A stretch of 10,620 nucleotides of DNA from Methanospirillum hungatei. Its GTDB lineage: Archaea > Halobacteriota > Methanomicrobia > Methanomicrobiales > Methanospirillaceae. The stretch lies in the NCBI RefSeq assembly GCF_020216685.1, contig NZ_JAIWNS010000100.1:1-10620 (forward strand), written 5' to 3'. Of the stretch, positions 1,478-10,276 are shown piece after piece. Position 1 is the first letter of the stretch. Each line of letters begins with the position of its first letter. The notes below the pieces were generated by a model that did not search any database, was not told the DNA's origin, and was given only the letters and a program-made list of their open reading frames with translations. A program made the translations under genes and the position numbers.

Positions 1478-1756
1478 TTAGGGAGCCATATATTCTTGTG
1501 GAGAATCACCAGGCTCAATATCATTATTTTTTATCTTTTGAACCAGTATGTCAAAGTTCTGTATGATATTATCCTGACCGGTAAGATAGCGATCCCCCAT
1601 CAGGACAAATGGTACATGAACATGACCAAGAGATTTTTGCAATTGAGCAAATTTTTGTGCACTGGAGTTGTCTGAACCAATATTATAATAGGCTACAGAG
1701 ATATCTGATGAATTGGATTCATACTGCTCAATAAATGGAATAAACGAATTGAGGAG
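1478..1756 (-). pseudogene. 5'-truncated thioredoxin/glutaredoxin-fold protein (relic)
   Basis: A minus-strand frame is open for 92 codons (stop TAA 1480-1478) but has no start codon near its upstream end, where TAG 1759-1757 closes it. The product looks like real protein: LLNSFIPFIEQYE, then SVAYYNIGSD, then VPFVLMGDRYLTGQDNI. The VPF cis-proline and GDxxLxG pattern is that of the second half of thioredoxin-fold disulfide or glutaredoxin-like proteins. In that family LLNSFIPFIEQYE would directly follow the catalytic CxxC helix, so the redox site and everything before it are missing. No CxxC is found in the adjoining sequence, which runs into the divergent TRIC-type gene 12 bases on. An oligo-T run on the minus strand (1458-1451) lies just past the stop and may be the old terminator. 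Plus-strand ORFs here are shadows of this relic. Identity to a specific subfamily is inference. Confidence 0.68.
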
Positions 1757-1768
1757 CTAAAACCTTTC

Positions 1769-2458
1769 ATGGATCCTGAAATCACCGACATGGTTCTTCT
1801 ATTTCAGACCGTCATACAATGGATTGCAATAATGCTTTCTGCATCCACAGGTGTGTATGATGCACGAAGAAACGGGATGGACTATTTTGGTGCCCTTGTC
1901 ATCGCAGTAATAGTCGCTGTCGGGGGTGGAACGATCCGGGATCTGTTACTCGACAGGTACCCTCTCTTCTGGCTGGCTGATCCAATTTATCTTATCAGCA
2001 TCTTCATCGTGGGAATAATTGGCATTATTCTCATTCCAATATCAAGGACAGATGTCCCTTGGGATCAGAAACATTCTTCTGGGTTTTTACAATCGATTGT
2101 CAGACTGATCTTTGGAACTTCAGGGACCTTTGCCTTTATTGATTCGTTCGCTCTTGGTATGTGGGCATACCTTGGCACCATGTATGCACTTACCAGTGGA
2201 ATACCCCCCATCATTGCCCCCATCATGGGAGTAATCACCGCTTCTTTCGGAGGAGTCCTCCGGGATATATTGTTTGCAAAAATTCCTGAACTCTTTAAAC
2301 CAAGCCAGTTCTATGCCATAGCATCTTTTGCTGGTGCAACAGCATATGTGCTGATGTCCATAGCAGGATTTTCAGGTACTGATGGATTTATCATATGCAT
2401 GATCGTCACCGTTTTTGTGCGTATGACATCAATACGGTACAATATTACCAGTTTTTAA
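1769..2458 (+). CDS. TRIC/YicG-type (UPF0126) membrane protein
   Basis: An integral membrane protein of the TRIC cation-channel/UPF0126 family (Pfam PF03458). Family members are trimeric monovalent-cation channels in animals and in some archaea and bacteria; the bacterial YicG branch has been linked to glycine. The 229 residues hold about seven hydrophobic segments arranged as two repeats. The repeat signatures are GGGTIRDLLL (52-61) and GGVLRDILF (161-169), each at the break of a membrane helix as expected. The N-terminal DARRNGMDYFGA (31-42) is also typical of the family. A linker at 91-107 is longer than usual, making the protein slightly longer than the common 200-210. Start ATG 1769 follows GAGGAG (1751-1756) at a somewhat long spacing of 12 bases; CAATAAATGG (1730-1739) could be its TATA element. 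No partner gene is evident, so the transported ion is inferred from the family only. Confidence 0.9.
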   Translation: MDPEITDMVLLFQTVIQWIAIMLSASTGVYDARRNGMDYFGALVIAVIVAVGGGTIRDLLLDRYPLFWLADPIYLISIFIVGIIGIILIPISRTDVPWDQKHSSGFLQSIVRLIFGTSGTFAFIDSFALGMWAYLGTMYALTSGIPPIIAPIMGVITASFGGVLRDILFAKIPELFKPSQFYAIASFAGATAYVLMSIAGFSGTDGFIICMIVTVFVRMTSIRYNITSF

Positions 2459-2651
2459 TGTGAAAGGCCTATACAGCGGTGAAAAAAATACGTGTGGATG
2501 ATCACTTTTCATCCAGATCAAATGTCGAAAGAGGTGTTCATCGTCAACCCCAGGTTAGTTCTCAACTCTATTGGGATGCTCATGAGAAGGAAAGGAGTTC
2601 CTTGGTGGAACAGATGAGGTTTACATTTTTGAAAAAAACTGTACCAAAGGC
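2459..2651. other. Gene-free stretch before the moaD relic
   Basis: No intact gene is recognised. One plus-strand frame is open for about 63 codons (2463 to the TGA at 2652-2654) but has no start and no family I recognise. It may be eroded coding sequence from the same decaying locus or chance. A 6-bp inverted repeat GGATGA/TCATCC (2496-2501, 2509-2514) lies about 40 bases after the TRIC-type gene and could mark its 3' end, though no T-run follows. Confidence 0.4.
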
Positions 2652-2931
2652 ATGAAAATTCATTATCAGACATATGCATGATTTGTTGAATTCCTTGGAA
2701 AAGAAGGCGACATTGAAATTACACCAGGAACAACAATACATGGATTTCTCAAACTCATTACAGGGGAGGATGAAAAGAAACAATTACTGCTCTTTGATGA
2801 GAACGGAGTAGTACGAAGGTATGTTAGTATCCTTAAAAATACAGACACAAAGATCAAATCCTGAACAAAGAAACAGCTTCCTTCAGGATACGAATGAACA
2901 TATATTGTACCCGCCTGTTTCCGGAGGCTGA
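2652..2931 (+). pseudogene. moaD: moaD relic: molybdopterin synthase small subunit / sulfur carrier, nonsense codon plus frameshift
   Basis: A decayed ubiquitin-like sulfur carrier of molybdenum/tungsten cofactor synthesis. From ATG 2652 the frame reads MKIHYQTYA, then TGA (2679-2681), then FVEFLGKEGDIEITPGTT, later LLLFDENGVVRRYVSILKN. This follows archaeal MoaD closely (KxFAxFREILG at the N-terminus, then LFDENGxxRxYVxILxN). The TGA sits where the family often has Arg, so a single CGA-to-TGA change explains it. The frame stops again at 2862-2864. Continuing in the +1 frame gives DTNEHILYPPVSGG and TGA 2929-2931, the canonical MoaD C-terminus with terminal Gly-Gly. Total length, about 92 residues, fits the family. 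There is thus one nonsense mutation and a net +1 shift between about 2853 and 2887. The moaE relic follows with no gap, as in intact moaDE operons. Confidence 0.8.
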
Positions 2932-3129
2932 ATGATTCACATAAAAAAAGAACCGACAGATACCTTACACCTGTTGATCTTAACGATGATTGCTGTCGCT
3001 GCAGGCCACCGGAATGAAGCATTTTTAGCGGCACGATACATCATCGATGAATGAAAAACCCGGGTGCCAATCTGGAAAGCAGACGTTTTCAACGACAAGG
3101 TCACATGGATCCATGGAGAAAAAGAATAA
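2932..3129 (+). pseudogene. moaE: moaE relic: molybdopterin synthase large subunit, internal deletion plus nonsense codon
   Basis: MoaE is the catalytic subunit of molybdopterin synthase and partners MoaD. The ATG at 2932 abuts the moaD stop (TGAATG). The frame reads MIHIKKEPTDT, like a MoaE N-terminus, then jumps to MIAVAAGHRNEAFLAARYII, the conserved HRxxAF region, so some 70 residues are missing (MoaE is usually near 140). After DE comes TGA (3052-3054), then KTRVPIWKADVFNDKVTWIH and GEKE, ending at TAA 3127-3129. The family has DxLKxRxPxWKxE here, so the stop replaces the Leu of LK, a one-base change from TTA. The His-Arg pair and the PIWK lysine are still present. The reading frame is otherwise kept across 66 codons, so decay looks recent. 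It overlaps the longest reading of the next gene. Confidence 0.82.
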
Positions 3130-4285
3130 TCCTGATACTATTCAGAACTCAATTATTTATGCGAATAATGCTGCAACGACATGGCCAAAACCGCCATCAG
3201 TCTTAGCCGCGGTATATAAGGCAGCAGCCGGACCCTATCTTGAACAGGGGAGAACCACTGTACAGGATGTACCCGACTACCTGTTCGAGACACGAAGAAG
3301 ACTTGCCAACTTTTTCAATACCAGAGATCCTGATGCATATGTTTTTACGGCACATGCCACGGATTCACTCAATCTCCTGATACACGGATTTGCTCGCCAG
3401 GAGAAAGGACCCTTTCATGTCATCACCACGTTATTTGAGCATAATTCGGTAATCCGCCCCCTTTATGAGTTGCAAAAAACGGGTCGGATATCGCTGACCG
3501 TCATTCCTCCAAATGCAGAGGGGATAATCGATCCTGACGATGTGAGCGGGGCTCTACGGGATGATACAAAACTTGGGATATTCTCACATGCAGGGAATGT
3601 AATCGGAACGGTCCAGGATATCTCCGAGATCACCCGGATTATGGATGAAGCTGACATTTTCTCCATCATTGACGGAGCACAGAGTGCCGGGCAGATCCCT
3701 ATCGATCTCTCACGGATACTGTGTGATGCATTTGTCTTTACCGGTCACAAGTATCTCTTTGGAGTTCCAGGAACAGGGGGGTTCTTTCTCAGAAGTCCTG
3801 ACCAGATCTACCCGGTACGACAGGGAGGGACCGGGATTGATTCGTCCTCACCTGTTCAGCCTGAATCAATGCCTGAACGATTTGAGGCAGGCACACCAAA
3901 CTTCCCCGGCATAGCAGGACTTGGAGCAGGGATTGCATATGTTCAGGATATCGGGATAGAGGCCATACAAACGAAGACGATGGGGATGATCTCTGACCTG
4001 ATTCAGAAGTTGCAGGAGATCAACGGGGTATCCATACTCCATGAACACCCGCAGACCCCCCTTGTGTCATTTCAGATTCCCGGGCTCGATCCTGATGACA
4101 TCGGGTACATCCTTGCCAAAGCGTACCGGATCATCACACGGAGTGGTCTCCACTGCGCTCCGTGGGTTCACTCCCGCCTTACAGAGGGAAAAGGTGCTGT
4201 GCGTATCAGTTTGTCATACATGAACACCTTTGAGGAGTGTGCTCAGATCGCTGATGCAATCAACGCACTATGCCAGTCAGAATAA
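3113..4285 (+). CDS. Cysteine desulfurase family protein, EF2568 type (class V aminotransferase)
   Basis: A PLP enzyme expected to take sulfur from cysteine, forming a persulfide and alanine, in the cytosol. From ATG 3113 it has 390 residues. Motifs: N-terminal YANNAATTWPKP (16-27), typical of the TIGR01977 branch; H110 in FEHNS; cofactor-binding D188 in IIDGAQSAGQ; Schiff-base lysine K213 in TGHKYLFGVPGTGG; and catalytic C348 in RSGLHCAPWVH. An ATG at 3047 would add 22 residues (MNEKPGCQSGK...), but these are the moaE relic read in another frame, so 3113 is preferred. Neither start has a strong ribosome site. The gene follows the decayed moaDE pair and precedes the sulfur carrier and NcsA genes, pointing to sulfur delivery for cofactor or tRNA thiolation. 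EF2568-type genes elsewhere occur with selenium or molybdenum-hydroxylase genes, so the acceptor is open. Confidence 0.9.
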   Translation: MEKKNNPDTIQNSIIYANNAATTWPKPPSVLAAVYKAAAGPYLEQGRTTVQDVPDYLFETRRRLANFFNTRDPDAYVFTAHATDSLNLLIHGFARQEKGPFHVITTLFEHNSVIRPLYELQKTGRISLTVIPPNAEGIIDPDDVSGALRDDTKLGIFSHAGNVIGTVQDISEITRIMDEADIFSIIDGAQSAGQIPIDLSRILCDAFVFTGHKYLFGVPGTGGFFLRSPDQIYPVRQGGTGIDSSSPVQPESMPERFEAGTPNFPGIAGLGAGIAYVQDIGIEAIQTKTMGMISDLIQKLQEINGVSILHEHPQTPLVSFQIPGLDPDDIGYILAKAYRIITRSGLHCAPWVHSRLTEGKGAVRISLSYMNTFEECAQIADAINALCQSE

Positions 4286-4506
4286 CATACCGGTAAAGGT
4301 GCAACAATCACTCATAAAATAAGGAATACATCCCTCCATGCTGATATTGTTTTATCCTGCACCGGACTGCGTTTAGTGTACTCTTAAAAGATCTTCCAAT
4401 CCCAAGGATCATGAATAACAGGAAGCCATAATTATCATCCTACCGTTCCATCAGATGTACTCCTATTGTTCTTTGGTATATTTAGTCATCAAGTAACCGG
4501 CAATTT

Positions 4507-4559
4507 TCAGGTTTTCTGATAAAAAACATCCGGGATTTTATCCCATGAAAAAACCCTGA
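4507..4559. repeat. Nested inverted repeats upstream of the sulfur-carrier gene
   Basis: An inner hairpin GGGAT-TTT-ATCCC (4532-4544) sits inside an imperfect outer stem TCAGGTTTT (4507-4515) with AAAACCCTGA (4550-4559, one bulged base), followed by ATTTTT. It lies just upstream of the putative TATA box. It could be a terminator of an upstream transcript, a small RNA or a regulatory site; the sequence alone does not decide. Confidence 0.35.
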
Positions 4560-4567
4560 TTTTTCAC

Positions 4568-4591
4568 AATAAACTTTATGATGATATACAT
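4568..4591 (+). promoter_or_regulatory. Putative promoter of the sulfur carrier-ncsA operon
   Basis: The AT-rich run holds AATAAACTTTATG and GATATACAT, both TATA-like. Initiation 25-30 bases downstream would fall at about 4598-4615. That is compatible with a near-leaderless message from ATG 4598, or with a leader of 55-70 bases before ATG 4670. Confidence 0.35.
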
Positions 4592-4669
4592 AAGATCATG
4601 CAATCCCTGATCGATTTTTTGCCGGCATCATCAAACCTATCATCAAATAACGCTATAACTCATCCACGA

Positions 4670-4864
4670 ATGAGACTTATGCTCCCGGATCAATCAGTGA
4701 TTGAGGTATCGGTCGAAGGAAGAACAATCGAAACGATACTAAACAGCCAGGGAATTGATCCGCTGACGACCTTGATCTCACGGGAGGATGAGATCATCCC
4801 GGAAGATACCATCCCTGATGAGGAGGATGTTATCAGAGTCATTCGGATCTCCCATGGCGGATAA
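4670..4864 (+). CDS. ThiS/MoaD-like ubiquitin-fold sulfur carrier (SAMP2-like)
   Basis: A small beta-grasp protein whose C-terminal glycine is adenylated and thiocarboxylated to carry sulfur; archaeal SAMPs can also be conjugated to proteins. From ATG 4670 it has 64 residues: MRLMLPDQSVIEVSVEGRTI, then ETILNSQGIDP, ending DVIRVIRISHGG. The strand-helix-strand pattern and the terminal Gly-Gly fit haloarchaeal SAMP2, which works with NcsA in tRNA thiolation. The frame opens at ATG 4598, adding 24 Ser/Asn-rich residues that do not fit the family, so I prefer 4670; no good ribosome site supports either. It overlaps the next gene by 11 bases, the terminal Gly-Gly codons containing the ncsA start, so the two are surely co-translated. 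No E1-like (UbaA/MoeB) activating gene is in the window. Confidence 0.83.
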   Translation: MRLMLPDQSVIEVSVEGRTIETILNSQGIDPLTTLISREDEIIPEDTIPDEEDVIRVIRISHGG

Positions 4865-5780
4865 GAAGATACACTGTGAACAGTGTAACAAGCCCGCAGT
4901 CTACCTTGACCGGGAACAAGGAGTTCATCTCTGCAGAGACCACCTGAAAGAATCTGTAGAGAATGAAGTGCGAAGGTACCTGAAAACGAAAAGCCTCCCT
5001 GAGACACTCGGCGTTGCTTTTTCAGGAGGGAAAGACAGTACTGCCTTACTTAAGGTGCTGAGTGAGATCAGGAGTGAACTCCCCTGTAGTATAATCGCAC
5101 TCACCGTTGATGAAGGAATAGAAGGATATCGTCAGGATACAATCCGGGCAGCGACAGAAACATGTCTGACGCTTGAAATACCTCACAAGATCATCAGGTT
5201 TCAGGACCTGTATGGATACTCCCTGGATCATCTGGTATCAGGATCAGAGCGAAATGCCTGCACCATCTGTGGAATCCTTCGCCGTCGGGCACTCGAAGTT
5301 CTGGCACAAAAGCATTCGATCTCCATGATTGCGACCGGGCATAACCAGGATGACCATGCCCAGACCACTTTGATGAATGCCATTTCAGGAGATGTGAGAA
5401 AGGTCTTTTCCGGGTACGGACCGTCATCATGGTATGCACACCGAATCAAACCATTTGCCAGGGTAAGCGAGAAAGAAGTAACCCTTTACGCTCTCCTAAG
5501 CGGATTATTTAAAGATCTGCCGGAGTGCCCATACGCAGTATCTTCACTTCGGGGAGAGGTCAGAACCCTCCTGTACCAGTATGAACAAAAACATCCCGGA
5601 GCAATGAGAAATGCTGCCCGGTGTGAAGAAGAGATCAGGGAAAGATTAGGAGGAACGTATCATCCGGAAGAATATAAGGCCTGTTCAGTCTGTGGGTGGC
5701 CGGGTTCGGGAACCATCTGTCAGGTGTGTATGGTTCTCGGCAAGGATATCCCCCATCACAACACTGTGACAAAAGAATAA
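4854..5780 (+). CDS. ncsA: tRNA 2-thiolation protein, NcsA/TtuA/Ncs6 family
   Basis: An ATP-dependent tRNA uridine 2-thiolase: it adenylates the uridine C2 oxygen and replaces it with sulfur. From ATG 4854 it has 308 residues, and all family marks are present. The N-terminal zinc site is C8, C11, C27, H30. The PP-loop is FSGGKDSTALL (56-66). C136 and C139 (ACTICG) with C225 (PECPY) are the three ligands of the TtuA/NcsA [4Fe-4S] cluster. TGHNQDDHAQT spans 161-171. A C-terminal zinc site is C277, C280, C289, C292. An upstream in-frame ATG (4788) would add 22 residues read from inside the carrier gene, so 4854 is chosen. Only a weak GGAT-type ribosome site is seen, and the overlap with the carrier gene suggests translational coupling. 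The target could be U34 or U54; sequence alone does not say. The iscSU pair downstream could supply its cluster. Confidence 0.92.
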   Translation: MADKKIHCEQCNKPAVYLDREQGVHLCRDHLKESVENEVRRYLKTKSLPETLGVAFSGGKDSTALLKVLSEIRSELPCSIIALTVDEGIEGYRQDTIRAATETCLTLEIPHKIIRFQDLYGYSLDHLVSGSERNACTICGILRRRALEVLAQKHSISMIATGHNQDDHAQTTLMNAISGDVRKVFSGYGPSSWYAHRIKPFARVSEKEVTLYALLSGLFKDLPECPYAVSSLRGEVRTLLYQYEQKHPGAMRNAARCEEEIRERLGGTYHPEEYKACSVCGWPGSGTICQVCMVLGKDIPHHNTVTKE

Positions 5781-5841
5781 TGAGCATACCATTGCAGACA
5801 CACCTCATCTACTAGTACCACAAACATATACGCACGATACC

Positions 5842-7038
5842 ATGGCCAGTCAAAAGAGCATTTACATGGATCACAGTGCCACCACTGCCACCGATCCAGC
5901 AGTTGTAGAGGCCATGCTCCCCTGGTTCTCGATCAATTATGGAAATCCCTCATCCCTCTATCGTCTTGCACGAGATTCCAAAGCCGCGATCGAGGATGCA
6001 CGAAAACGGGTTGCAAACGCCATCGGAGCAAAACCTGAAGAGATATACTTTACTTCCGGAGGAACCGAGTCAGATAACTGGGCACTGAAAGGTGCTGCAT
6101 TCGCCCTTCAAAAGAGAGGCAATCACATTATTACATCCGCGATTGAACACCACGCGATCCTGCATACCTGCCAGTATCTCGAGAAACACGGCTTTCAGGT
6201 CACCTATCTTCCGGTTGATGAGTTCGGACAGGTCCGTATCGAGGATCTCAGGGCTGCGGTCACTGATAAGACCATCCTGGTCTCGGTGATGTTTGCCAAT
6301 AATGAGATCGGGACCATTCAGCCCATTCCGGAGATAGGAGCGTTCTGCAGAGAACGGGGGATTCTTTTCCACACTGATGCGGTTCAGGTTATTGGCAACC
6401 TCCCCGTTGATGTTGCAGCGATGAACATTGATCTGTTATCACTCTCTGCTCACAAGTTTTACGGCCCAAAAGGAATAGGAGCGCTCTATATAAGGAAAGG
6501 AGTCCGTATTGATAACTACCTTCATGGAGGCGGACAGGAGCACAGGAAACGGGCGGGCACAGAGAATGTACCCGGAATTGTAGGTCTTGGCGTTGCAATC
6601 GAGAAGGCCGTTGTTGATCTTGAGGTGAAAACATCACGAATACGGGCCCTTCGCGATGTATTACTCGATCGGATCCTCCATGAGATACCAAATACCCGCC
6701 TGAACGGGCACCGGACCATGCGACTCCCAGGGAATTTGAATGTCAGCTTTGAGTTCATCGAGGGTGAATCACTATTGCTCCTCCTTGACCATGCCGGAAT
6801 CGCTGCATCGACCGGGAGTGCCTGTTCATCAGGATCGCTTGAGCCCTCCCATGTATTACTCGCAATAGGTCTGCCGGCAGAAGTAGCCCATGGTTCTCTG
6901 CGGCTCACCCTTGGAGTGGAAAATACACAAGAGGATGTGAACTACGCATGTGATGAAATTAAAAAAGCAGTCGAACGATTACGAGCGATGTCACCACTCT
7001 ATGTTGATTACCTGAAAAAGAGGTCATGCAATGTATAG
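5842..7038 (+). CDS. iscS: Cysteine desulfurase, IscS/NifS type
   Basis: A PLP-dependent cysteine desulfurase giving persulfide sulfur for Fe-S clusters and probably other thio-acceptors. The 398 residues match the family length. Visible are MDHSATTATDPAVVEAM (9-25), the YGNPSSLY loop (33-40), TSGGTESDN (71-79), H104 in IEHHAI, D179 in FHTDAVQ, Schiff-base K205 in SAHKFYGPKG, RAGTEN (237-242), and catalytic C328 in TGSACSSGS on the flexible loop. Start ATG 5842 leaves eight residues before the conserved strand. No Shine-Dalgarno is visible, so the message may be leaderless or coupled to ncsA 61 bases upstream. The 3' end overlaps iscU by eight bases, the usual desulfurase-scaffold arrangement. 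This is the second desulfurase of the island and is of a different subfamily from the one at 3113. The roles of the two are probably distinct, which is inference. Confidence 0.95.
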   Translation: MASQKSIYMDHSATTATDPAVVEAMLPWFSINYGNPSSLYRLARDSKAAIEDARKRVANAIGAKPEEIYFTSGGTESDNWALKGAAFALQKRGNHIITSAIEHHAILHTCQYLEKHGFQVTYLPVDEFGQVRIEDLRAAVTDKTILVSVMFANNEIGTIQPIPEIGAFCRERGILFHTDAVQVIGNLPVDVAAMNIDLLSLSAHKFYGPKGIGALYIRKGVRIDNYLHGGGQEHRKRAGTENVPGIVGLGVAIEKAVVDLEVKTSRIRALRDVLLDRILHEIPNTRLNGHRTMRLPGNLNVSFEFIEGESLLLLLDHAGIAASTGSACSSGSLEPSHVLLAIGLPAEVAHGSLRLTLGVENTQEDVNYACDEIKKAVERLRAMSPLYVDYLKKRSCNV

Positions 7039-7462
7039 CGAAAAAGTAATGGATCATTTCATGAACCCCCGCAACCAGGGGGAAATACCAGACGCAGACG
7101 GTGTCGGAGAGGTAGGAAACCCCACCTGCGGGGATATTATGCGAATTTTTCTCACGGTGAAGGATAATATCATCACCGATGTAAAATTCCAGACTTTTGG
7201 ATGTGGAGCAGCGATTGCATCCAGCAGTATGGCAACCGAACTTATCAAAGGGAAAACCCTCGAAGAAGCCTGGGAAGTATCAAATAAAGCGGTTGCCGAG
7301 GCACTTGAGGGGCTCCCTCCGATAAAGATGCATTGTTCAGTTCTTGCAGAAGAAGGGATTCACAAAGCAATCAACGATTACCGGATAAAGAACGGATTAG
7401 AACCCTGGGAAGAAAAAGGCGGGCACACCCACAGTCATGATGACCTGACCGATGAAGAGTAA
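7031..7462 (+). CDS. iscU: Fe-S cluster scaffold, IscU/NifU N-terminal type, with His-rich tail
   Basis: The scaffold on which Fe-S clusters are assembled from IscS sulfur before transfer to target proteins. It has 143 residues. The three ligand cysteines are C33 (NPTCGD, with D35), C58 (FGCGAA) and C102 (KMHCSV); the N-terminal VMDHFMNPRNQG is diagnostic. The C-terminus extends beyond the normal fold with the charged, His-bearing tail GGHTHSHDD (130-138). Such a tail might bind metal, but that is untested. GAGGT (7019-7023) lies seven bases before ATG 7031, one of the clearest ribosome sites in the window, so translation is not solely coupled to iscS, which it overlaps by eight bases. It lacks the fused C-terminal Nfu and ferredoxin-like domains of full NifU. 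Last gene of the island; the next gene is convergent nine bases away. Confidence 0.95.
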   Translation: MYSEKVMDHFMNPRNQGEIPDADGVGEVGNPTCGDIMRIFLTVKDNIITDVKFQTFGCGAAIASSSMATELIKGKTLEEAWEVSNKAVAEALEGLPPIKMHCSVLAEEGIHKAINDYRIKNGLEPWEEKGGHTHSHDDLTDEE

Positions 7463-7471
7463 CCCGGATAA

Positions 7472-8767
7472 TCATTTTTTGAGCATTTCTGCATATTCGT
7501 ACGCAGGCATTACCTGGATGATCTTATCATCAACCGTTAACCTTTCTGAATCATTCATAGTGAGAATGTATCCGGGAACTCCGGGGTGCGAATCCATGGC
7601 CTCGATTAATCCACGAATTTCACGATTTCGTACATCAGAATTTTCCAAAGATGTACATACCTGAATGGCGCTAACAATCCGATGATTCTCCTGGATTAAA
7701 AAATCACATTCATATCGTACCCGGTGATAAAAAACAGAAGACTCTTTCTTGCGGATAAGTGTAGTAAATACGTAGTTTTCCAGAATTTTTCCGGCATTCT
7801 CTGAAAATTTAAATGATACTGCATTTATCAGACCCGTATCAATGCAATAGAGTTTTTTCATATTATAAAGTTGCTTCTTTACTGAAGGATCATATTTCAG
7901 AACCGGATAGAGGAGATATGCATCATAGGCACATTCAATATACTCACGTACCGTATCCGTTGAGATTCCAATCTGTTCACCAAGCCGTGTATATGAAAGC
8001 AGATTTCCAGTGTTGGAGATGAGAAAATAGAGAAGATCCACAAGATATGCAGGACTCCTGATGTTATGTGCCATCATAATGTCTTTAAGATAGATAGTTT
8101 CGTAATACGATGTGAGCAGATCATGTCGAAGAGAGATATCTGATTCCACGGTAATACGGGGAAATCCCCCATACTTCAGATAATTTTCAAAAAGTTGGTT
8201 CTTCCTTGTAATACTTACCCTTGTTTCTCCCAGAAATGAAAGGTACTCTTCAAAAGAAAGTGGATATACAGTAATTGAAAGATACCGGCCAGATATCTTC
8301 GTTGCCAGATTTCGTTTCAAAAGAGAGGAGGTGGAACCGGTGAGAATCCATTTGATGTGAGGTTTTGTATCATATGAAACCTTTATTGCCCCTACCCATT
8401 CTTCATAATTCTGTATTTCATCAATAAAGATAAAATAATGGGGTTTATTTATTTTTTCAAGGTATTCTTCAATGAGTTCATTGAGAAAACCTGGATCATG
8501 CATCCATCCGGTGAAGAGTGGTTCATCAAGATTGATATAAAGTATTGAATCAGGATCAGTTCCCTGATGTATGAGATACTCCACCATCTGAAACATCAGG
8601 GTGGATTTTCCGCTTCTCCTGACTCCCTGAATAAACAAAATTTCCCTTGCGTCAAGATACCGGATTAATTCAGGATATGAACCGAGCCGGTTCTGCCCCG
8701 TGTTATAGGTACGTCCAAACCACCAGGGATTCTGCCTGTCAAGGACTGCCTGGATTCTTCGATCCAT
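7472..8767 (-). CDS. AAA ATPase with DUF4143 C-terminal domain
   Basis: A predicted cytosolic ATPase of the AAA_14/DUF4143 family, common and multi-copy in archaea. Its function is poorly known; toxin, mobile-element or DNA-related roles have been suggested. The 431 residues are the usual length. Walker A is GVRRSGKST (48-56), Walker B FIFIDEIQ (112-119), the sensor strand ILTGSTSSLL (141-150), then ISGR (158-161) and PLSFEEYL (169-176). A winged-helix segment covers about 255-290 (RLGEQIGISTDTVREYI). The DUF4143 part has YCIDTGL (307-313) and E330. The PD-(D/E)XK-like motif runs CDFLI (354-358) to AIQVC (367-371), where a cysteine stands at the usual lysine, so nuclease activity is doubtful. 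It looks more AT-rich than the sulfur island and carries its own promoter, consistent with an independently acquired gene. It is convergent with iscU. Confidence 0.9.
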   Translation of the reverse strand: MDRRIQAVLDRQNPWWFGRTYNTGQNRLGSYPELIRYLDAREILFIQGVRRSGKSTLMFQMVEYLIHQGTDPDSILYINLDEPLFTGWMHDPGFLNELIEEYLEKINKPHYFIFIDEIQNYEEWVGAIKVSYDTKPHIKWILTGSTSSLLKRNLATKISGRYLSITVYPLSFEEYLSFLGETRVSITRKNQLFENYLKYGGFPRITVESDISLRHDLLTSYYETIYLKDIMMAHNIRSPAYLVDLLYFLISNTGNLLSYTRLGEQIGISTDTVREYIECAYDAYLLYPVLKYDPSVKKQLYNMKKLYCIDTGLINAVSFKFSENAGKILENYVFTTLIRKKESSVFYHRVRYECDFLIQENHRIVSAIQVCTSLENSDVRNREIRGLIEAMDSHPGVPGYILTMNDSERLTVDDKIIQVMPAYEYAEMLKK

Positions 8768-8782
8768 TTGTTAAATATAATT

Positions 8783-8804
8783 GATGATTCATGATAAAAT
8801 CATC
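8783..8804. repeat. Inverted repeat at the AAA ATPase transcription start
   Basis: GATGATT (8783-8789) and AATCATC (8798-8804) are a perfect 7-bp inverted repeat with an 8-base spacer. A further GATGAT lies at about 8815. The repeat sits between the TATA box and the start codon, near the predicted transcription start, so it could be a repressor operator or a leader hairpin. Confidence 0.4.
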
Positions 8805-8822
8805 GACTACATCTGATGATCC

Positions 8823-8832
8823 TATATAAAAT
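8823..8832 (-). promoter_or_regulatory. Putative TATA box of the AAA ATPase gene
   Basis: On the minus strand the sequence is TTTTATATAG, a near-consensus archaeal TATA element. Initiation about 25 bases downstream would be near 8800, leaving a leader of roughly 30 bases before ATG 8767. The neighbouring minus-strand MFS gene ends at 8879, just upstream. Confidence 0.5.
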
Positions 8833-8878
8833 CAGCAATCGTAATCGAGATTTTCAGATGAGACCAACATAAAAATAA

Positions 8879-10276
8879 TTAAGACCGGACATTTCCCCTG
8901 ACCATCGAGAAGAATATCCCGATAAAACACATCACAGAAAAGATAACAAACCCAATATTCATCGCACTCATGAGCTCATCTGACACATCAGGGGTTATGT
9001 CTACTTTTCCGACCACAATAGCGATAATCATCATCGCGATTCCCATCGAGAGCATCTGACCCAATAGCCGCATCGTCCCCAAGGTTCCGGATGCGATGCC
9101 ATAATATCGCTTCTCCACCGAGCTCATGATTGCATTGGTATTTGGTGATGAGAAGAGAGCAAAGCCAAATCCGAGGACTGCCAGGATAACCATCAGCTCG
9201 ATCATGGACGTATCCGGAGAGAGAAAGCTTAAGGAAACAAGCCCCAGAGCAATGATCCCCATACCAAGCGAGGATATTTTCGCAGGTTCAATCCGATCTG
9301 AAAGACCCCCGGCATATGATGAGAAGATTGCCTGCACTACCGGCTGGGTGACAAGAATAAACCCGGCCTCCTGCGGGTCAAAACCTCTGATGTATTGTAA
9401 ATATAAGCTGAGAAAGAACGTTATCGCGAAAGTTGAGCCGTAATTTATCAGAGCAGCAACATTTGAACAGGCAAACACCCGGTTTGTTCTGAACATGGAC
9501 ACCCGAATCAGCGGATACCGTTCCCGGTGCTCAAGCCAGATAAAGAGTGCGAGCAGGGTGACTCCCAAACCAAGAGCAAAAAATCCGGCGAGATGGGGGA
9601 TCTCGGAAAAACCGATCATCACCGCAGTAAGGCTGCTTCCATAGATGAGGGCTCCTTTCAGATCAAACCGCTCACCAGCTGCATCAGCCCATTCTCCTTT
9701 TAAATAGAAGAGGATAAGGGCAATGATGAGGATGCCAATCGGGACATTAATCAGGAAGATACTTCTCCACCCAAAGTCATCAGTCAGAAAGCCTCCGATA
9801 AAGGGGCCTGCTGAAAGACCGAGGTACACTGATGTGGTGTAGATGCCAAGTGCCTGGCCCCGTCGTGTGGGTTCGGTCACGGATGTCAGAATTGCCACGG
9901 CGGTTCCAAAGATCATCGAAGCCCCGATACCCTGAATCAGGCGGAAACCGATGAGCATAAGAGACGAGGCTGAGAAGATCATCCCCACAGAAGCCAGGGT
10001 AAAGAGGGCTACTCCACCGGTCAGGATCTTCTTTCTCCCGAAGATATCACCAATTCTCCCAAACGGAACAAGGAAGGCTGCTGATGCCAGAAGATACGCA
10101 CTGCTGACCCAGCTTAATTCAATGGCATCAAGAGAAAATTCACTGGCAATCGTCGGAAGCGCAATATTTACTGCAGAGAGATCAAACGGAGTTAAAAACC
10201 CGCAGCATACAGCGATAATTAGGGTACTAAGGGAGATGCCAGGGACCTTCATTGAGGAATGAAGATATTCCTCCAT
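8879..10276 (-). CDS. MFS transporter, DHA2 (EmrB/QacA) type
   Basis: A proton-coupled drug/metabolite exporter in the cytoplasmic membrane, by family. The 465 residues contain about 14 hydrophobic segments. Family motifs are FDLSAVNIALP (31-41, motif D1), GRIGDIFGRKK (73-83, motif A), RLIQGIGAS (112-120, motif B region), and GLSAGPFIGGFLTDDFGWR (153-171, motif C and the following loop). The longest start is ATG 10276; ATG 10252 is an equally good candidate and would drop eight polar residues. The GGAGG at 10274-10270 lies too far (17 bases) from 10252 and within the longer reading frame, so the start is undecided. It lies 33 bases after the thiM stop on the same strand, so co-transcription is plausible. 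A thiamine-related substrate is only a guess from that position. Confidence 0.92.
   Translation of the reverse strand: MEEYLHSSMKVPGISLSTLIIAVCCGFLTPFDLSAVNIALPTIASEFSLDAIELSWVSSAYLLASAAFLVPFGRIGDIFGRKKILTGGVALFTLASVGMIFSASSLMLIGFRLIQGIGASMIFGTAVAILTSVTEPTRRGQALGIYTTSVYLGLSAGPFIGGFLTDDFGWRSIFLINVPIGILIIALILFYLKGEWADAAGERFDLKGALIYGSSLTAVMIGFSEIPHLAGFFALGLGVTLLALFIWLEHRERYPLIRVSMFRTNRVFACSNVAALINYGSTFAITFFLSLYLQYIRGFDPQEAGFILVTQPVVQAIFSSYAGGLSDRIEPAKISSLGMGIIALGLVSLSFLSPDTSMIELMVILAVLGFGFALFSSPNTNAIMSSVEKRYYGIASGTLGTMRLLGQMLSMGIAMMIIAIVVGKVDITPDVSDELMSAMNIGFVIFSVMCFIGIFFSMVRGNVRS
10254..10273 (-). repeat. Hairpin over the MFS translation start region
   Basis: GAGGAAT (10254-10260) and ATTCCTC (10267-10273) pair perfectly over 7 bp with a 6-base loop. 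In the minus-strand message, the stem would include most of the only strong Shine-Dalgarno-like sequence (GGAGG, 10274-10270) and end one base before the inner ATG (10252-10250). It could modulate translation of the exporter. Confidence 0.4.

Follow-up and report, generated by a model that had tools for sequence, protein, structure and literature searches.

The closest described counterparts of the locus analysed here are the MoaD/MoaE molybdopterin synthases of known structure (PDB 1fm0, 2qie, 2q5w), the sulfur carriers of Thermococcus kodakarensis and prokaryotic pseudogenes. In T. kodakarensis, several MoaD-like ubiquitin-like sulfur carriers share cofactor and tRNA thiolation tasks, and according to the available part of PMC11323500 all three carriers are functional, whereas in the locus described here one carrier has been lost. 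Prokaryotic pseudogenes, as far as the accessible text of PMC522871 describes them, retain a recognisable gene with stops, shifts and deletions. We propose that a stretch in Methanospirillum is, very probably, a second molybdopterin-synthase operon (moaD2-moaE2) that was lost as dispensable and persists as a non-functional relic. It resembles those pseudogenes in its lesions and in the lost codon bias of moaD. It differs from them, within the same available text, in that adjacent genes of one functional set decay together around a retained gene, csd2. The corresponding genes of the relative G003 are like the known molybdopterin synthases, whereas in the copy described here 67 MoaE residues are missing and the MoaD frame is not open. 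Among the papers listed by our literature search we saw nothing on this locus, the available portions of PMC2948915, PMC522871 and PMC11323500 included, and no paper joining Methanospirillum, CysE and cysteine desulfurase.

The window, i.e. the whole stretch of 10,620 nucleotides that was analysed, is the entire contig C124 of genome G000 (300 contigs; 3,005,800 bases; 90.36% complete). The relics of moaD and moaE lie in the gene-free stretch between a TRIC-type gene and csd2. Family searches stand behind the names of csd2 and of the ThiS-like and TtuA/NcsA-like genes, while the remaining gene names in the window were taken from translations. The features are:

1769-2458: TRIC-type gene, named from its translation
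2508..2518, no strand: deletion junction A, an 11-base near-repeat TTCAT C/T CAGAT found on both sides in G003 (10/11 alike)
2508..2656, plus strand: csd1 fragment, from a SufS-type cysteine desulfurase, the intact G003 gene of which encodes 393 aa
2652..2931, plus strand: moaD relic, with TGA at codon 10 (2679-2681), an 8-base gain and a 7-base loss (net +1)
2932..3129, plus strand: moaE relic, with an in-frame loss of 67 codons (break near 2982-2987) and TGA at 3052-3054 in the DELK motif
3047..3112, plus strand: putative in-frame upstream extension of the csd2 frame, 22 codons, its start use predicted at most
3113..4285, plus strand: csd2, intact class-V aminotransferase/cysteine desulfurase of 390 aa, listed as protein P0058
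4270..4314, plus strand: small-gene stub overlapping the csd2 end, MPVRITYR (eight codons) followed by a stop; 110 aa in the sisters
4319..4419, minus strand: 3' end of cysE, reading VIHDPWDWKI with a stop soon after
4598-4864: ThiS-like gene, weak family match (16.2 bits)
downstream of the ThiS-like gene, in order: a TtuA/NcsA-type gene, nifS, nifU, an ATPase gene and an MFS gene

G003 has the ATPase gene (7472-8767), whereas in G001 nifU and the MFS gene have no such gene between them. No plasmid record matched the window, and no Rfam non-coding RNA family was found in it at gathering scores.

The frame from the ATG at 2652 reads MKIHYQTYA*FVEFLGKEGDIEI..., and the end YPPVSGG* falls in the +1 frame. 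Compared with two single-contig relatives, the sisters G001 and G003, the moaD relic has 8 bases extra and 7 missing. The stop, the net shift and the YPPVSGG end had been described in a sequence-only reading of this DNA, and all three are seen in the sequence and in the sister alignment. The moaE relic abuts the moaD stop (TGAATG) and measures 198 bases compared with 399 in G003, an in-frame loss of 201 bases. The missing part, put at about 70 residues by the same reading, thus amounts to 67 codons; the TGA in DELK and the retained motifs GHRNEAF and KTRVPIWK are as it had stated. In both sisters moaD and moaE are whole, in the same place and in the same order, as the strain comparison that had been called for now shows. 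Together with a Pfam MoaE match, these intact genes bear out that the abutting order is not due to chance. By blastn, 2652-2982 matches G001 at 83.2% (E 6.9e-100 to 1.5e-98) and G003 at 82.0% (E 2.1e-94 to 3.9e-93), and the part from ~2987-2989 through csd2 at 87.8% and 89.9%, respectively. The stretch thus has clear homology to intact genes at the orthologous place, as in a pseudogene. Over almost their entire length, the intact genes of G003 match the two families (Pfam PF02597/ThiS, PF02391), and its MoaD ends in GG. The proposed profile search succeeded for one relic only: the moaE tail alone scores 24.4-26.7 bits against a Pfam MoaE cut-off of 23.4, its match being confined to profile positions 89-114, whereas the first-frame moaD piece alone matched no MoaD/ThiS Pfam family (sole match unrelated, 13.5 bits) and the moaD relic was not among the matches of a ThiS search of the G000 genome. 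The identity of moaD therefore rests on DNA homology and position.

The pair is disabled by two stops, the net +1 shift and the 201-base loss; the MoaE domain is partial and the MoaD frame to GG is broken. Since 67 MoaE residues are missing and the MoaD frame is closed, the window copy cannot give the enzyme. Methanogens are known for recoding and both disabling stops are TGA, so UGA read-through combined with frameshifting could be invoked to have the pair still made into protein. However, the residues replaced by the two TGA codons are R and L in both sisters and not Cys, the shift and the 67 missing internal codons come in addition to the stops, the sequence preceding the moaD start has been replaced relative to the sisters (junction B), and six neighbouring genes tested contain no in-frame stop. 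We give recoding practically no chance.

The distribution of substitutions points to the same non-functional state of moaD. The relic differs from G003 at 35 of 272 compared bases (12.9%), spread as 12/10/13 over the codon positions. In five pooled neighbouring genes the window-G003 differences are 71/37/269 over 1465 codons, i.e. 3.7% of the sites at positions 1+2 and 18.4% of those at position 3 (p = 8e-5 for the codon-position spread of moaD against these neighbours). Differences in moaD are thus even over the positions, without the codon-position bias of its neighbours. Between the relic and G003, dN is 0.112 and dS 0.231 (ratio 0.49), while dN is 0.0119-0.056 in TRIC, csd2, ttuA, nifS and nifU and 0.0125 in the ATPase gene, and dS of these six neighbours ranges from 0.116 to 0.351. 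The ratio between the intact MoaD of G001 and that of G003 is also high (0.47), from just 8 changes. Assigned to branches, 29 moaD changes are window-only and 6 are G003-only (p = 1e-4; p = 0.036 against four pooled neighbours), and a window-only excess is also seen outside moaD, in csd2 (85 vs 27, p = 4e-8) and nifS (49 vs 30, p = 0.04). From these patterns, moaD appears to have been drifting during much of the period since the window and G003 separated, though not all of it; its dN is only about half of its dS, so the drift was shorter than the whole separation. A copy caught early in decay, as had been suggested, does not agree with the even spread in moaD and may fit moaE, the tail of which keeps its codon bias.

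G001 and G003 are the sole comparisons for this locus, because a search of nine other genus genomes with window 1700-7460 found none in which matches connect TRIC with csd2 along a single stretch. In the right flank G001 is distant from both the window and G003 (nifS dS 0.74-0.90 vs 0.35 for window-G003), whereas csd2 shows the smallest distance between G001 and G003 (dS 0.21). Recombination between the G001 and G003 lineages has probably affected the block, so “window-only” changes may include some of an older branch. The block and the right flank have different gene trees, so changes can be assigned less clearly to the window branch, and we would put the csd2 excess down to the gene tree of the block. 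The window-G003 comparison is independent of this question. In a tree of the other, intact MoaE copy (copy 1, see below), G000 groups with G011 and G006 and not with G003 (98/91), whereas the DNA of this locus is most similar to that of G003 (91% over 4428-9423), with G006 at 72%; G003 was taken as the nearest relative for this locus.

The tail of moaE (~40 codons) is the best preserved part of its relic. It shows only 8 differences from G003 in 124 bases, of which 2 fall at positions 1+2 and 6 at position 3 (dN 0.011, dS 0.256). The 5' moaE block differs at 10/44 bases (p = 0.008 against the 3' block), and at positions 1+2 the tail differs at 2/83 sites compared with 22/181 in moaD (p = 0.010; p = 0.08 over all bases); these contrasts have few counts and are post hoc and uncorrected. 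Either moaE would have been lost later than moaD, or the tail would serve csd2. The latter gene matches Pfam PF00266 (E 8.8e-72, 3047-4282), and its dN/dS of 0.154 against G003, compared with 0.176 between the two sisters, indicates that this intact gene is still under purifying selection. The idea that csd2 is the next gene to die was rejected on these ratios. A service to csd2 could consist of a leader with start signals or of an N-terminal extension from the ATG at 3047. The less diverged 3' block would be in line with it, and so would the finding that one and the same base makes the moaE TGA and removes the TAA closing the csd2 frame in both sisters (MN*KPG in G003, TN*KFG in G001, MNEKPG in the window). 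Through this base, 22 codons are open upstream of the csd2 start. In the sisters the csd2 start overlaps the moaE end, and P0060, the csd2 protein of a relative, is 400 aa long and starts with 10 other residues. On the other hand, besides the limits of the contrasts named above, 6 of the 8 tail differences fall at moaE third positions and fit a late-translated moaE equally. A protein search with the csd2 upstream region gave four matches, namely the window's own protein (390 aa), two of 390 aa and P0060, and the 22-residue extension is in none of the four, the window's own protein being called without it. No good ribosome-binding site was seen before 3047 (by eye only). Preservation of the tail for csd2 is, on balance, unlikely, and it is compatible with the loss of a dispensable operon that we favour.

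The description of two relics was correct and incomplete, as the debris is wider than had been noticed. In G001 and G003, moaD and moaE stand with two cysteine desulfurases, fdhD and cysE. The window locus has lost metX, a nadA and an fdhD, and retains csd1, the small gene and cysE only as pieces. The csd1 fragment (149 bases) matches L026 4489-4638 by blastn (82%, E 2.6e-36) and G001 at 82.7% (E 5.3e-38), and its translation shows 63% identity over residues 30-70 (E 3.3e-9); the family match of the intact G003 csd1 is below the SufS cut-off. At junction A about 2.8 kb with metX and nadA are absent compared with G003. In both sisters csd1 lies upstream of fdhD, and after the csd1 piece about 3.2 kb are missing relative to G003 (the rest of csd1, fdhD and a sulfonate-type binding protein), while the gap relative to G001 is about 1.9 kb and does not include the binding protein. 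Of cysE about 900 bases are missing, with homology resuming at 4428. In the rest of G000, which is 90.36% complete so that absence is no proof, cysE was not found and only the CBS part of metX was matched. The remaining nadA is only 43.5% identical to the lost one, and the two remaining fdhD-type genes are 34-35% identical to the lost fdhD. We propose several separate loss events, named here in no more than a tentative order: the upstream part underwent large deletions, one of them between short direct repeats; moaD received a stop and two indels, and moaE an in-frame deletion and a stop. The gene csd2 was retained.

G000 is a 300-contig, incomplete assembly. Of 20 contigs sampled from it, 6 have a length of exactly 10,000 bases, which makes it probable that contigs had been split. 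The genes might accordingly be whole in the organism, with the lesions stemming from a mixed or faulty metagenome assembly or consensus. However, TRIC, csd2, ttuA, nifS, nifU and the ATPase gene are open end to end, and errors would need to be crowded into csd1, moaD, moaE, the small gene and cysE. The even spread of the 35 moaD differences is a pattern of drift and not of assembly error. Coding density (ORFs of at least 100 aa; 20 of the 300 G000 contigs and ten 20-kb stretches each of G003 and G001) is 0.902 in G000, similar to 0.915 in G003 and 0.872 in G001. An artefact is highly improbable. By the same crude measure there is no sign of genome-wide decay, and this idea was dropped.

An intact moaD-moaE pair elsewhere in the genome had been predicted, and it was found at C242:7315-7904. 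MoaD1 (C242:7315-7566, E 3.2e-8) and MoaE1 (C242:7581-7904, E 4.1e-31) have no stop; MoaE1 reaches 108.8 bits with the Pfam MoaE profile, and MoaE chains of known structure match it with a best E of 7.6e-18. The pair adjoins genes which, from family knowledge, we take to be ycaO-, tfuA- and moeB-like. Between this copy 1 of G000 and copy 2 of G003, protein identity is 40% for MoaD and 37% for MoaE. In a tree of 74 MoaE proteins, copy 1 (n=12) and copy 2 (n=5) of the genus lie on separate branches with 100/99 support each, in an alignment of 139 columns with long branches flagged by the program. By identity and tree, the two copies are to be regarded as old paralogues, and a recent duplication of moaD-moaE as the source of the relic is ruled out. 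The term redundant copy used in the sequence-only reading is plausible in this sense of an old paralogue. Copy 1 is present in 12/12 genus genomes, and copy 2 without a stop in 5/12 (G001, G002 at a contig edge, G003, G004 and G008), with the relic in G000; copy 2 is therefore the dispensable one. Among 81 sampled genomes of the family, at least 57% identity to copy 2 was found only in those five and in the relic tail. A scan of a genome collection for MoaE2 gave 10 loci, all bacterial, with 34-53% identity and none from the genus, the near genomes of which the collection may leave out. We hypothesize that the operon became dispensable in this lineage as the paralogous moaD1-moaE1 encodes both subunits: MoaD1 and MoaE1 would make molybdopterin, and this redundancy would have permitted the loss. 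Two MoaD-MoaE lineages are thereby separated in one methanogen genus, one in 12/12 genomes searched and one optional, which makes the purpose of the second set a testable question.

The sulfur genes of the locus follow a similar distribution. Genes of the csd1 type (at least 56% identity) and cysE above its cut-off occur in the same 7/12 genomes (G001, G002, G003, G004, G005, G007, G008), and moaE2 in 5 of these 7, in counts that ignore kinship; moaE2 was not found in G005 and G007, which are 67% and 64% complete. None of the three was found in G009 and G010 (99% and 96% complete) or in G006 and G011 (84% and 75%). This pattern suggests an optional gene set that comes and goes together, with G000 in between. 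More specifically, and tentatively, cysE, the SufS-type csd1, fdhD2 and moaD2-moaE2-csd2 may form one optional unit, half-way lost in G000, in which the moaE tail would have been kept as the csd2 start region. As read here, the half-way state comprises dead csd1, moaD2, moaE2 and cysE and a csd2 that is still selected. We regard the locus as an ordinary case of gene loss, in which the disappearance of a redundant sulfur/molybdopterin gene set is seen part-way through, and thus as a half-finished example of an archaeon shedding a redundant sulfur-transfer/molybdopterin operon, whose debris can go unnoticed between intact genes. MoaE matches containing stops are also present in other genomes of the family, at G042:C191:12365-12646, G017:C31:3820-4200 and G058:C9:2290-2682; these are possibly further relics, or the stops lie outside the gene.
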